In this document: positions 53,902 through 60,616 of the stretch, in pieces | Layout of the letters: each line of letters opens with the position of its first letter | Numbering within the stretch: position 1 is the stretch's first letter | NCBI GenBank assembly: GCA_023269675.1 | Contig: JAHFSX010000027.1 | Coordinates: 1 to 64,000, forward strand | Direction: 5' to 3' | Source: Verrucomicrobiota bacterium | Lineage (GTDB): Bacteria; Verrucomicrobiota; Kiritimatiellia; RFP12; UBA1067 | DNA: 64,000 nucleotides | Position numbers and translations under genes: made by a program | Notes under the pieces: generated by a model | What the model was told of the DNA's origin: nothing | The model's input: the letters and a program-made list of their open reading frames with translations, nothing else | The model's database searches: none

Positions 53902-56703
53902 ATGATGACAGGCGAGCGCATTGGGGTAAAAAGGAAACGCATGAACCGTCGCCCCGCGCAGACCGAGAACCGCAACAAACGTTTGAAATTCCGAGGGGCG
54001 GCCGCCTCCTTCCTGCGGGCCATCGTGCCACGCTACGCCAGCCGTTTCGTTGTGGCTGCAACCGCGGTTGCGGTGTTCGCCGGCTACGTTCAGGCGGCGG
54101 TTTTCGTGACCAATGCGATTCCGCTGAGCACCGCGCGTCAGTTTCATACGGCGACGCTGCTCCCCAACGGGAAGGTGCTGGTCGCGGGCGGCAATAGCGG
54201 CAGCAGCGGTCCACTGGCCAGCGCGGAGTTGTTTGATCCGTCGACGGGCGCCTGGACGGCGGTCGGCCCGCTGAACACGGCCCGCTATATGCACAAGGCG
54301 ACGCTGCTCATGAACGGTAAGGTGCTGGTCTCGGGCGGCCTCAACTACAGCAGCGGCACTCTTTCCAGCGCGGAACTGTTTGATCCGGCCACAGGAACGT
54401 GGACGCTGACCGGCGCGCTGAGCGTTGCCCGCTATGATCACACGGCGACGCTGCTGCCCGACGGCAAGGTGCTGGTCGCAGGCGGAGTAAACAGCAACTT
54501 TATTTCAGGCGCGGAGCTGTACGATCCGATCACCGGCACGTGGACGGGGGCGGGGGCGCTGACCTTTGCGCGTTCACGCCATACGTCGACCTTGCTGACC
54601 AGCGGGAAGGTGCTCATCGCGGGAGGTTACAACGTCATAGACGGTTACCTCGCCAGCGCGGAGCTGTTTGACCCGGCCGCCGGAACGTGGACGGCGACCG
54701 GCGCCCAGGCCATCGGACGCTGGCAACACACGGCGACCTTGCTGCCCAACGGCAAGGTGCTCGTCGCGGGGGGTGAAGGCGGTCCCAATGGCAATGGCTA
54801 CAGGCTTGCCAGCGCGGAGCTCTATGAACCGGCCAGCGGGGTCTGGACCGTGACGGGCTCGCTGACCGCCGAACGCTATCAGCATACGGCCGCGTTGCTG
54901 CCGAACGGCAACGTGCTGGTTGCGGGGGGATCAGACGGCAACGTGTCGCTTTTCCGTGCGGAGTTTTACGATCTGTCCAGCGGGACGTGGACGGTCACCG
55001 GGTCGCTAAAAACGGGGCGGTCCAATCACACCGCGACGGTGCTGGCGAACGGAAAAGTGTTGGTTGCGGCAGGCTACAATTCCGGATCGATGTTAACGCC
55101 CGGCGGGCCGCTTGCCAGCGTGGAGTCGTATGATCCGGCGGTCGGGACGTGGACGAATTCCGACACGTTGACGAATGCCCGCAGAGGGCACACCGCGACG
55201 TTGCTACCCAACGGCAAGGTGTTGGTCGCCGGAGGGCAGGCGGGGGTCTTCCTCGCCAGTGCAGAACTCTATGACCCGGCTGCCGGCACGTTGACGGTAT
55301 CGGGTTCGTTGAATCAAGCCCGACAAGGGCATACGGCCACGTTATTGCCCAACGGCAACGTGCTGGTCGCGGGTGGGCATAGCGGGCTCGGCACGCTTGA
55401 CAGTACGGAACTGTATGACCCGGCCAGCGGGAACTGGACGGCATCGGGCACGCTGGCCCAAGCCCGTAACGGCCATACGATGACGCTCCTGTCCAACGGC
55501 AAGGTGCTGGTGGTCGGCGGTCATAATGGCGCCTTTCTTGCCAGTGCGGAGCTGTACGACCCGACCAGCGGGGTGTGGACGGCGACGGGCTCACTGTCAA
55601 ATGCCCGCAATCTGCATACGGCGACGCTGTTGCCCGATGGCAAGGTCTTGGTTGCCGGCGGATACAACGGCAGTTATCTTGCTGACGCGGAGCTTTATGA
55701 TCCGGACGCGGGCACATGGACGGCCGCCGGCACATTGGGTGCGGCCCGCGCCAATCACTCGGCGACGCTGTTGCCCAACGGCAAGGTGCTGGTCGCGGGG
55801 GGACGCGGAGTCAGTGGTCAGCGGGGGGATGCGGAGCTGTACGGGCCTGCCGCTGGCACATGGATGTTAACCGGCATGATGGGTATCGAGCGCGCCTACC
55901 ATACGGCGACGCTGTTGTCTAACGGCAAGGTGCTGGTTGCGGGCGGCAACACCGCAGGCAACGTGACGCTGGCCAGCGCGGAGCTGTATGAGCCTGCCGA
56001 CGGAACGTGGACGAAGACCGGAAACCTGAGCAGCAGCCGCTTTTGGCACACGGCAACTTGGTTGCCCGACGGCCAGGTCTTGGTCACGGGGGGATATCGG
56101 GATGATTCCTTCGGTTCTGGCGACCTTGCCGGCACGGAGCTGTATGATGTCGGTCTGGCGTTCAATGCGTCTTGGCGGCCACAGGTCGACACGTTCACCC
56201 CGCAGCTGAGTTCCGGCGGAAGCTTGGCACTGACCGGTTTGCGCTTCCGCGGCGTCTCTGGCGCATCCGGGGGAGGGGCCCCGGACTCGTCGAGCGATTA
56301 TCCGGTGGTGCAGCTGCGCAGCATCGAGAGCGGCCAGACTTTGTTTCTGCGCCCCACGAGCTGGGCGACGAACGCCTACACGTCTGCCGCGGCGAGCGGC
56401 CTGCCGCTCGGCTGGACGTTGGCGACGGTGTTCGTCAACGGCATTCCCAGCGAGGCCGTTATCCTCGAATATGTGGAGCCACCCCTTGTCATCGTCGCGC
56501 TTGACATGCAGCTTGACGGCACTGTGGTCATTTGGTGGAACAGCCTCTCGAATCATCTCTACACCGTACATCAGACCACGAACCTCGAAACGACGGCGTT
56601 CGCGCCTCTCCAGGGCGGGCTTCCCGCCATGCCCCCCTTCAACAGCTACACGACCACGACCAACGGGTCGCGAAGCAAGTTCTGGAAAGTGTCGACGCCC
56701 TGA
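53902..56703 (+). CDS. Secreted kelch/galactose-oxidase-like repeat protein, 14 repeats
   Basis: 14 copies of xHTATLLPNGKVLVAGG-type motif about 49 aa apart; Arg-rich N-terminus then TM/signal segment; typical C-terminal YTVHQTTNLE..SKFWKV module. Confidence 0.9.
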   Translation: MMTGERIGVKRKRMNRRPAQTENRNKRLKFRGAAASFLRAIVPRYASRFVVAATAVAVFAGYVQAAVFVTNAIPLSTARQFHTATLLPNGKVLVAGGNSGSSGPLASAELFDPSTGAWTAVGPLNTARYMHKATLLMNGKVLVSGGLNYSSGTLSSAELFDPATGTWTLTGALSVARYDHTATLLPDGKVLVAGGVNSNFISGAELYDPITGTWTGAGALTFARSRHTSTLLTSGKVLIAGGYNVIDGYLASAELFDPAAGTWTATGAQAIGRWQHTATLLPNGKVLVAGGEGGPNGNGYRLASAELYEPASGVWTVTGSLTAERYQHTAALLPNGNVLVAGGSDGNVSLFRAEFYDLSSGTWTVTGSLKTGRSNHTATVLANGKVLVAAGYNSGSMLTPGGPLASVESYDPAVGTWTNSDTLTNARRGHTATLLPNGKVLVAGGQAGVFLASAELYDPAAGTLTVSGSLNQARQGHTATLLPNGNVLVAGGHSGLGTLDSTELYDPASGNWTASGTLAQARNGHTMTLLSNGKVLVVGGHNGAFLASAELYDPTSGVWTATGSLSNARNLHTATLLPDGKVLVAGGYNGSYLADAELYDPDAGTWTAAGTLGAARANHSATLLPNGKVLVAGGRGVSGQRGDAELYGPAAGTWMLTGMMGIERAYHTATLLSNGKVLVAGGNTAGNVTLASAELYEPADGTWTKTGNLSSSRFWHTATWLPDGQVLVTGGYRDDSFGSGDLAGTELYDVGLAFNASWRPQVDTFTPQLSSGGSLALTGLRFRGVSGASGGGAPDSSSDYPVVQLRSIESGQTLFLRPTSWATNAYTSAAASGLPLGWTLATVFVNGIPSEAVILEYVEPPLVIVALDMQLDGTVVIWWNSLSNHLYTVHQTTNLETTAFAPLQGGLPAMPPFNSYTTTTNGSRSKFWKVSTP

Positions 56704-56835: not shown

Positions 56836-56864
56836 TTGACAGATCCGAAGCCATCGGTTACAAT
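56836..56864 (+). promoter_or_regulatory. Near-consensus sigma70-type promoter (TTGACA - 17 bp - TACAAT)
   Basis: TTGACA at 56836-56841, TACAAT at 56859-56864, exact 17-bp spacer. Confidence 0.75.
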
Positions 56865-56870
56865 GCAGCT

Positions 56871-57350
56871 GAAGGTTGGAGATGGAGGACTGACCTTCAG
56901 GATACAAGGTTCAGCTACAGGCCATTCAGGCTATGCCTTTTCAAAGCTCCGTAGCCCAGATGCAGGCCGTCAGATGAAAATCTTGATAATGGCCATGGGC
57001 GTGTGAAAGGCGACTGACCAGGCGATTGACGCCTACATAGACGAGGAGGGGCATGCCGAGCTGAGCAAGCGACCGTGTAACCGTCTGGCGCTTTACGCCA
57101 ACAAGGGTTGCGCGGCGATTCTTAGCGGAAGCCGGCGTGAGCGATTACTCCTTGCTAACTGGAAATGTCAGAAGGTTTTCACCGGTACACGCGAAAAGGT
57201 AACGGACAGGCTGCTCAGAGTTTGGGACGTCGCAACGATGGACCGGCTGTGAGTGGAAAGTAAAACAGAAGGGAGTTTCAGGTGACGATCAACAGAATAT
57301 GCGGTAACGCATAGAGGGTTCCCTCGATGAAGCGAGGGGGCCCTTTTTTT
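56871..57350 (+). ncRNA. Candidate uncharacterised structured RNA, about 480 nt
   Basis: Bounded by the promoter and an intrinsic terminator; 5' hairpin GAAGGT/ACCTTC, TGGCG-CTTTA-CGCCA and TATGCG-GTAA-CGCATA hairpins; no ORF listed on this strand. Confidence 0.55.
57316..57350 (+). terminator. Intrinsic terminator
   Basis: GGGTTCCCTCG - ATGAAG - CGAGGGGGCCC followed by TTTTTTT. Confidence 0.85.
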
Positions 57351-58962: not shown

Positions 58963-59052
58963 CGTTTTCAGGGGAGCCTGGCAGGGGGAGGGGATGCGCG
59001 CGAAGCCCCAGGCAGAAAAGCCGCCAGACGCAGGTTTTATGGGGCTTTCGGA

Positions 59053-59100
59053 TGGTAGGCCTGGCGGGAGTCGAACCCGCGACCCTCAGATTAGGAATCT
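59053..59100 (-). other. tRNA-Arg(CCU) 3'-half fragment, probable att site
   Basis: Reverse complement AGATTCCTAATCTGAGGGTCGCGGGTTCGACTCCCGCCAGGCCTACCA: anticodon loop TTCCTAA, T-arm GCGGG-TTCGACT-CCCGC, acceptor 3' strand plus CCA; sequence to the right does not continue as a tRNA 5' half. Confidence 0.85.
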
Positions 59101-59221
59101 ACATGCATGACCAGTAAACAGAGGCTGTTAATAAAATCTGTAACCAAGTTGTTGCCACAAACGGGTTTTGGATGGTATCCTCACGCCATTCTATTGACAC
59201 CTAGTGAAAGACGGTGCAATC

Positions 59222-60616
59222 ATGGCTAGAGAACTAAAAGAGGATACCGACCACAAGAACCTGCTCAAGCGCGGTGCAGTATGGTACATCAAGCGCATGG
59301 TTGACGGCAAGATGCTTGTCCAGTCCACCGGCGAGACCGACCTTGGCAAAGCGCGGTTGAAACGCGACAAGGTTCTGAACCCTTACAACCTCCTTGATGA
59401 GAAAGACCGCGTTCAAGCGGTTCTTGCTAGGGTGGCGACGGTTGACCAGCAGCTAGCCAAAATTGAGGACGAAAAACCAGCGACCACCATTGCGCACGGC
59501 TGGCAAGCGTACCTTGACCAACACAACCGACCGGATACGGGACCGGAGACGCTTGCCGTTTACGAGGGGCAGTACGAAGCCTTTTCCAAGTGGTTCAAGG
59601 GTGCCTATCCCAAAGCGCCAGAGTTGCGTCATGTCACCCAAGAACAGGCCGACCGTTACGCCGGGCACCTGTTGAAGCAAGTCGGCGCGTCTACCTTCAA
59701 CCGCCACATGAACCTGCTGGCGCTCGTTTGGAAGGTTTTGGGCAAGACGGCACGTATTGACGCGAACCCGTGGAAGCAGATCGGCCGTAAACGGTTTGTC
59801 GCTCATTCCCGCCGTGAGTTAACCATTGAAGAACTGGGCGCGGTGTTCAACACGGCAAAAGGTGAAATGCGTACATTGTTGGCGTTGGGTACATTCTGCG
59901 GGTTGCGGCTGGGCGACGCGGCTAGTCTTGAATGGGGCAGTGTGGACATGGTTAGGGGCATCATTACGTTTATTCCCCGGAAGGGGGCGGGGCGGGAAAA
60001 CAAGCGCGTAACCCTGCCGATACATCGGACGCTTTACGACATGCTTGCAGAGATCCCCAAAGGGGCGCGGCGCGGGTCCGTTCTGCCGACTATGGCGGCG
60101 CGTTACAACGCCTTTGACGGTGCGCTTGCGAAAGACGTTGCACGGGTCTTTCTCTCGTGCGACATCAAAACCGGTGCGAACAAATTGACCAAGACCGAGC
60201 GCGAGGCGCTAGAGCAATCCAAGACCGAAGCCCTTGCCGAGGGCAGGGAACTGCCGACAATCAAGCACACGGAGAAACGTGCCAGCGCCGACGTTGGCTT
60301 TCATTCCCTGCGCCATACCTTTGTTTCCTTGTGCGCGGCGGGTGGCGTCAGTCAATCAGTGGTACAGTCCCTTGTCGGTCACGGTTCGCCCGCGATGACC
60401 CAGCATTACACGCACATCGGCATTGAGACCGCACAGAAAGCCATTGCCTTGATTCCCGACGTGACCCATACGAACACCCCAGCCGAACATGCGGACGCAA
60501 CAGACGCGAAACTGGCCGCAGTCGTGGCGCAACTGGACGGGTTAACGGACGGACAACTCAAGACGGCGGCGAAGAAGATTCGTGAAATCGTTGAAAAACG
60601 AAAATCGACTAAGTGA
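59222..60616 (+). CDS. Tyrosine recombinase / phage-type integrase
   Basis: Catalytic motifs FCGLRLGDAASLEW, FHSLRHTFVSLC, LVGHGSPAMTQHYTH; adjacent to the tRNA fragment. Confidence 0.95.
   Translation: MARELKEDTDHKNLLKRGAVWYIKRMVDGKMLVQSTGETDLGKARLKRDKVLNPYNLLDEKDRVQAVLARVATVDQQLAKIEDEKPATTIAHGWQAYLDQHNRPDTGPETLAVYEGQYEAFSKWFKGAYPKAPELRHVTQEQADRYAGHLLKQVGASTFNRHMNLLALVWKVLGKTARIDANPWKQIGRKRFVAHSRRELTIEELGAVFNTAKGEMRTLLALGTFCGLRLGDAASLEWGSVDMVRGIITFIPRKGAGRENKRVTLPIHRTLYDMLAEIPKGARRGSVLPTMAARYNAFDGALAKDVARVFLSCDIKTGANKLTKTEREALEQSKTEALAEGRELPTIKHTEKRASADVGFHSLRHTFVSLCAAGGVSQSVVQSLVGHGSPAMTQHYTHIGIETAQKAIALIPDVTHTNTPAEHADATDAKLAAVVAQLDGLTDGQLKTAAKKIREIVEKRKSTK

Follow-up and report, generated by a model that had tools for sequence, protein, structure and literature searches.

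A candidate family of large structured RNAs restricted to one Kiritimatiellae family

The window analyzed here, a 64,000-nt stretch of DNA from a Verrucomicrobiota bacterium, contains at positions 56836-57350 a complete predicted transcription unit: a promoter, about 480 nt without coding signal and a strong intrinsic terminator. A preliminary description, made from the letters of this DNA, had proposed a structured RNA that is transcribed independently and belongs to no known class. We infer the same, given that no Rfam family matches the unit and that its stems covary in relatives. As judged by comparison of its homologues, the window RNA is a member of a lineage-restricted family of structured RNAs that is absent from Rfam 15.

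Transcription signals and homologues

The promoter (TTGACA-17-TACAAT) is the only site of its kind between positions 56000 and 58000, where shuffled sequences give 0.4 ± 0.6 sites. Its TTGACA box is invariant in all 10 copies for which the promoter region was found, and the -10 box has the form TA...T in the same 10 copies. The 5' end of the RNA is a predicted one, about 7 nt past the -10 box, and the 3' end was placed in the T-run. The terminator stem (57313-57346) had been described as 11 bp long; our scan counts 14 pairs, followed by T7, and the pairing is unbroken in nine of nine complete copies. The promoter, the three hairpins and the terminator named in the preliminary description were all recovered (Table 1), with the 5' hairpin GAAGGT/ACCTTC formed by 56871-56876 and 56893-56898. 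These signals suggest that the RNA is transcribed as a discrete unit, from its own promoter to its own terminator.

We then considered the distribution of the unit. In a BLASTN search, the source genome yielded two further copies (on C79 and C66), and five other genomes of the family yielded one copy each. Two more genomes, from another genus, were added by a covariance model (R1) built on the 5' part of the core of the fold, and a fourth copy in the source genome, on C30, by a model (R2) built on the remainder of the core. The RNA is thus present in 11 copies in eight genomes of four genera, all within one Kiritimatiellae family, and four of these copies occur in the source genome. The R2 search of 347 genomes of the class gave no further copies, and a draw of 390 genomes of the phylum gave matches in two genomes of the source genus and nothing more; these two large model searches used stricter filters, by which remote members could have escaped. 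The seven other carriers were recovered in a DNA pattern scan of 85,462 species; their record titles name Kiritimatiellae, Lentisphaerae or a bacterium only, and it is through these relatives that the window is assigned to Kiritimatiellae. The scan also matched one Acidimicrobiia record, which was judged a chance match because no other conserved blocks were found in the surrounding sequence. There was no match to the RNA in the viral, phage and plasmid collections searched, and a phage or plasmid origin was rejected on this ground. As far as searched, the RNA family is restricted to one Kiritimatiellae family.

Nine of the copies are complete, and their length is nearly constant (478-507 nt). 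In all nine, conservation begins at the promoter and stops at the terminator, and the flanks are not conserved. The promoter and the terminator are therefore conserved together, and the structure between them covaries without any coding signal, as is expected of a stand-alone noncoding RNA.

Architecture of the fold and its statistical support

The preliminary description had pictured the RNA as a string of hairpins. Its structured nature is borne out by the conserved stems, but the string gives way to one large multibranched core with arms, closed by an 11-bp helix and followed by 3' hairpins and the terminator (Table 1). The fold varies most in genus g10. There, the 5' hairpin is formed differently, and the sequence of the core arm at 56954-57000 is almost entirely replaced while both of its sides are still conserved; by inspection, a comparable arm is still possible with the new sequence. 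In hairpin B, the loop reads GAAAGGA in most copies and GAAGGGA in the window copy. Alternative pairings of this purine loop with UCUUUUC, the 5' strand of the helix that closes the core, were noted as a tentative possibility, nine sequences being a small sample for judging them.

Table 1. Positions of the transcription signals and structural elements in the window
Feature	Position	Strand	Evidence
Sigma-70-type promoter TTGACA-17-TACAAT	56836..56864	+	11/12 consensus positions
Structured RNA	56871..57349	+	Conserved unit in nine complete copies, covariation, no codon periodicity
5' hairpin GAAGGT/ACCTTC	56871..56898	+	Compensatory changes in seven-sequence alignment; 84% of cells paired
Multibranched core, closing helix of 11 bp (56932-56942 with 57193-57203)	56932..57203	+	Helix 1; 94.9% of cells paired
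Core arm	56954..57000	+	Helices 3-5
Small hairpin AGGCG/CGCCT	57020..57034	+	Helix 8; compensatory change A-U to G-C
Long core arm, including TGGCG-CTTTA-CGCCA (57086-57100) and GUAAC/GUUGC helix	57038..57157	+	Helices 9-14
3' hairpin A	57223..57246	+	Helix 15; 72% of cells paired, alignment uncertain
3' hairpin B, purine-rich loop	57262..57279	+	Helix 16
3' hairpin TATGCG-GTAA-CGCATA, GNRA-type loop	57298..57313	+	Helix 18; 96% paired; compensatory change in G004
Intrinsic terminator GGGTTCCCTC/GAGGGGGCCC, then T7	57313..57350	+	Scan; helix 19; 100% of cells paired

Next, we evaluated the pairing statistically, on a small sample of nine complete sequences from four genera. The alignment of these nine contains 120 base pairs, of which 89.6% of cells are canonical; this value falls to 38-42% when the partners are slid by 1-3 columns. 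Changes on both sides were seen in 20 of the 120 pairs, as against 9.6 in shuffles, and none of 500 shuffles reached the observed number. Most helices are preserved across genera. Given that the structure was derived from the same alignment, we repeated the pairing test with held-out sequences, for which the structure was learned without the test sequence (from six training sequences in the case of the window copy). The held-out window copy kept 103 of 119 pairs (92.8 ± 2.2 expected) and showed eight compensatory changes (3.2 expected, p=0.006). Held out in the same way, and outside the replaced arm, G024 and G010 kept 81 and 80 of 93 pairs, respectively, where 72.2 and 70.4 were expected (p=0.0002 each); their compensatory counts alone were not significant. 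Base pairs were accordingly kept far above chance in the window copy and in the most distant copies (p≤0.0002). Training on genus g1 alone also predicted the pairs of G021, G004 and G024. In addition, paired columns are less changeable than unpaired ones, with changes in 55 of 238 paired and 94 of 231 unpaired columns of the window copy. The stem conservation in relatives that had been put forward as a check on the structured RNA is thus clear, and it is accompanied by covariation.

Folding energy gave a less uniform picture. The whole window RNA has a z-score of -4.3, which becomes -2.6 when the terminator is removed, and in most relatives the z-score without the terminator is near 0. Folding energy is weak evidence here, and we therefore built the case on the comparative evidence.

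Coding potential and comparison with known RNA classes

A transcript of this size might also be translated. It had been noted that the + strand carries no ORF of at least 60 codons, and this holds: the longest within the unit has 56 codons, starting from TTG (56836-57006). In seven pairwise comparisons, substitutions fall evenly on the three codon phases, and 37 of 40 indels would shift a reading frame, their length not being a multiple of three; a coding region was rejected on these two results. On the minus strand, ORFs of about 100 codons occur in several relatives and not in the window copy. The idea that the RNA is the messenger of a small protein, or a dual-function RNA, could draw on a Shine-Dalgarno-like stretch, AAAGGAGG, near the 5' end of most copies, on the GAAAGGA of hairpin B, and on short in-frame readings toward the last hairpin that were found by eye. 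However, there is no common ORF of useful length, no codon periodicity is seen, the Shine-Dalgarno-like stretch is missing from the window copy, and it is not followed by any conserved start codon. One such reading, of 13 codons toward the last hairpin, was rejected because its ATG is present in some copies only and the hairpin accounts for the conservation. We consider a messenger role very unlikely.

We also compared the RNA with known classes. A scan of the window against Rfam 15 gave no family at the gathering score, and less stringent scans, which covered the unit and eight homologue loci, gave only sub-threshold hits that were terminator-like or implausible. Acido-Lenti-1, reported in Lentisphaerae, showed no match to the RNA, and a literature search found no RNA study of Kiritimatiellae. 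The size range, the stand-alone expression signals and several GGA motifs would be compatible with a divergent 6S RNA, tmRNA, RNase P RNA, SRP RNA, CsrA sponge or group II intron remnant. The absence of tmRNA and 6S signatures, as first reported, was confirmed: neither ARAGORN nor Rfam detected a tmRNA, with its tRNA-like domain and tag ORF, in the window, and 6S RNA (RF00013) has a separate locus on another contig in eight of eight carriers (C55 in the source genome), which excludes a 6S identity. 6S RNA resembles the present RNA in being a stand-alone regulatory RNA that has a promoter and a terminator to itself, but it is a simple long hairpin of about 180 nt. CsrA sponges of the CsrB/RsmZ type are a few hundred nucleotides long and carry GGA-containing loops. 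In these respects they are similar, whereas the window RNA is built around a single multibranched core instead of successive GGA hairpins. A CsrA gene was found in none of 112 genomes of the family, with positive controls, and a CsrA sponge is thereby excluded. Moreover, the RNA does not behave like a housekeeping RNA, being multicopy in the source genome and missing from most relatives. On these scans, which for 6S RNA covered whole genomes, membership in any of these classes is extremely improbable.

The OLE, ROOL and GOLLD families, which are included in Rfam, offer a parallel in scale. They are large, stand-alone and complex RNAs of several hundred nucleotides, in which some segments are strongly conserved and whose function is not settled (PMC12286853), OLE being about 600 nt long (PMC12054373). 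The RNA described here shares their size and stand-alone complexity, but it matches no Rfam family by sequence or covariance model. OLE is an RNA of Gram-positive bacteria (Bacillota). Homo-oligomeric assembly is a further feature of OLE, ROOL and GOLLD RNAs. The genes for ROOL and GOLLD lie in phages and prophages, close to tRNA islands (PMC12286853), in contrast to the present RNA with its lack of viral, phage or plasmid matches.

Neighboring genes, possible action and copies in the source genome

If the RNA acted in cis, a constant association with one gene or pathway would be expected. The gene located 3' of the RNA encodes a NIPSNAP protein in six genomes, a Gfo/Idh protein in the window and a PHP-like protein in genus g10 (the last named by eye, Pfam having given no match), and at C79 a GH106 gene lies between the RNA and the NIPSNAP gene. 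No constant association was found. Nevertheless, the arrangement recalls riboswitch or attenuator leaders that bear terminators, in which a structured RNA likewise ends in an intrinsic terminator with a same-strand gene downstream, and the RNA could be a very large leader of this kind, in which a signal permits read-through past the terminator into the downstream gene. Indeed, a same-strand gene follows the RNA in all nine complete copies, and in G001 about 16 nt separate the T-run from the start codon of the NIPSNAP gene; a separate promoter hardly fits into this gap, so that regulation by read-through is conceivable in G001. Short alternative pairings also exist between upstream segments and the 5' arm of the terminator or other hairpins, but we found no convincing antiterminator beyond them. 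Unlike in such leaders, neither the gene nor the gap is conserved, the latter extending from the 16 nt of G001 to several hundred nucleotides of unrelated sequence. Furthermore, the NIPSNAP gene has RNA-free relatives: in seven genomes there was no sign of the RNA within the available upstream stretch. The best model match in those seven loci (R1, 16.7 bits, L054:451-502) falls inside the NIPSNAP coding region and was taken as noise. With the gene occurring without the RNA in these genomes, and the RNA without the gene in genus g10, an obligate tie between the two was rejected. This makes an obligate role as a cis leader improbable and favors a separate RNA, and we regard the leader reading in general as unlikely.

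Several other features were noticed around these loci. Just upstream of the RNA, the window encodes a secreted-looking protein of 933 aa consisting mostly of kelch repeats (53902-56703). In L012 (G032:C503), repeated blocks (TTCAATCTCACACAAAGGCACAAAGG..., CCTTCGTGGCTTCGTGTGAGAAACAAC) occupy about 1100-1400, between the RNA terminator and the NIPSNAP gene. In L058 (G019:C100, minus strand), the opposite-strand reading upstream of the NIPSNAP gene resembles a long, repetitive coding sequence rich in Lys, Ala and Pro, perhaps for a histone-H1-like protein. On the other side of the RNA in the window, the 3' half of a partial tRNA-like sequence (about 59052-59100, minus strand), which ARAGORN did not call, lies beside a phage-type integrase gene (59204-60616, PF00589). 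The region 59050-60616 resembles one end of an integrated element, at its attachment site, with the element extending rightward, away from the RNA. Since the integrase is on the far side of the partial tRNA, the RNA seems to lie outside that element.

Based on its conserved signals and fold, we propose that the RNA of about 480 nt is probably a stand-alone, trans-acting structured noncoding RNA of a previously uncatalogued family. Transcription would begin at the sigma-70-type promoter of the unit and stop at its intrinsic terminator, and the product would fold into the multibranched core with its 11-bp closing helix and the 3' hairpins. The folded RNA may then act in trans, either as a scaffold that binds a protein or by pairing with other RNAs; in the simplest form, it would be an RNA-protein scaffold or an antisense-type regulator expressed from a strong promoter. 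As a speculation, the purine-rich AAAGGAGG and the GAAAGGA of hairpin B could pair with UCUUUUC or with C/U-rich targets. A bolder reading, which we consider unlikely, is that of a new large stand-alone RNA family, confined to a single family of bacteria, whose fold has no relation to those of OLE, ROOL and GOLLD, and forming an RNA machine, an RNA-protein machine or a catalytic RNA with an activity outside every known RNA class. To our knowledge, stand-alone bacterial RNA families of such size and complexity are uncommon, and OLE, ROOL and GOLLD turned out to be structurally unusual, with functions that are still open. Given that the RNA is compact and nearly constant in length, has clear ends and is represented by diverged paralogues in one genome, in vitro synthesis and direct probing are feasible. 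The RNA also draws attention to a little-studied phylum as a reservoir of RNA families missing from Rfam.

Finally, we examined how the four copies in the source genome are related. In a tree, the window copy groups with the C66 copy and, with weaker support, with the C30 copy, all on long branches, and the C79 copy groups with that of G001. These comparisons identify the window copy as a diverged paralogue in which the promoter, the predicted fold and the terminator are kept. The copies on C79 and in G001 both lie upstream of a NIPSNAP gene, which makes the former the probable orthologue of the copies in other genomes. The window copy might differ from its C79 counterpart in being a decaying paralogue without present function, one of a set of duplicates that spread and are now being lost. 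In line with this, the C66 copy has been cut to the promoter and the 5' part, part of the core is missing from the C30 copy, and the window copy, itself on a long branch, lacks the conserved purine-rich AAAGGAGG. However, the window copy retains both promoter and terminator, its paired columns change less than its unpaired ones, and its compensatory changes exceed expectation, as given above; we find decay unlikely. As for the truncated copy (G000:C66, about 96260-96735, minus strand, L003), its promoter now leads into a ribosome-binding site followed by a small Lys-rich ORF (MGDKKSKKDK...). Because homologues of the encoded protein occur in other families of the order, the RNA relic may now serve as the promoter and leader of this ORF.
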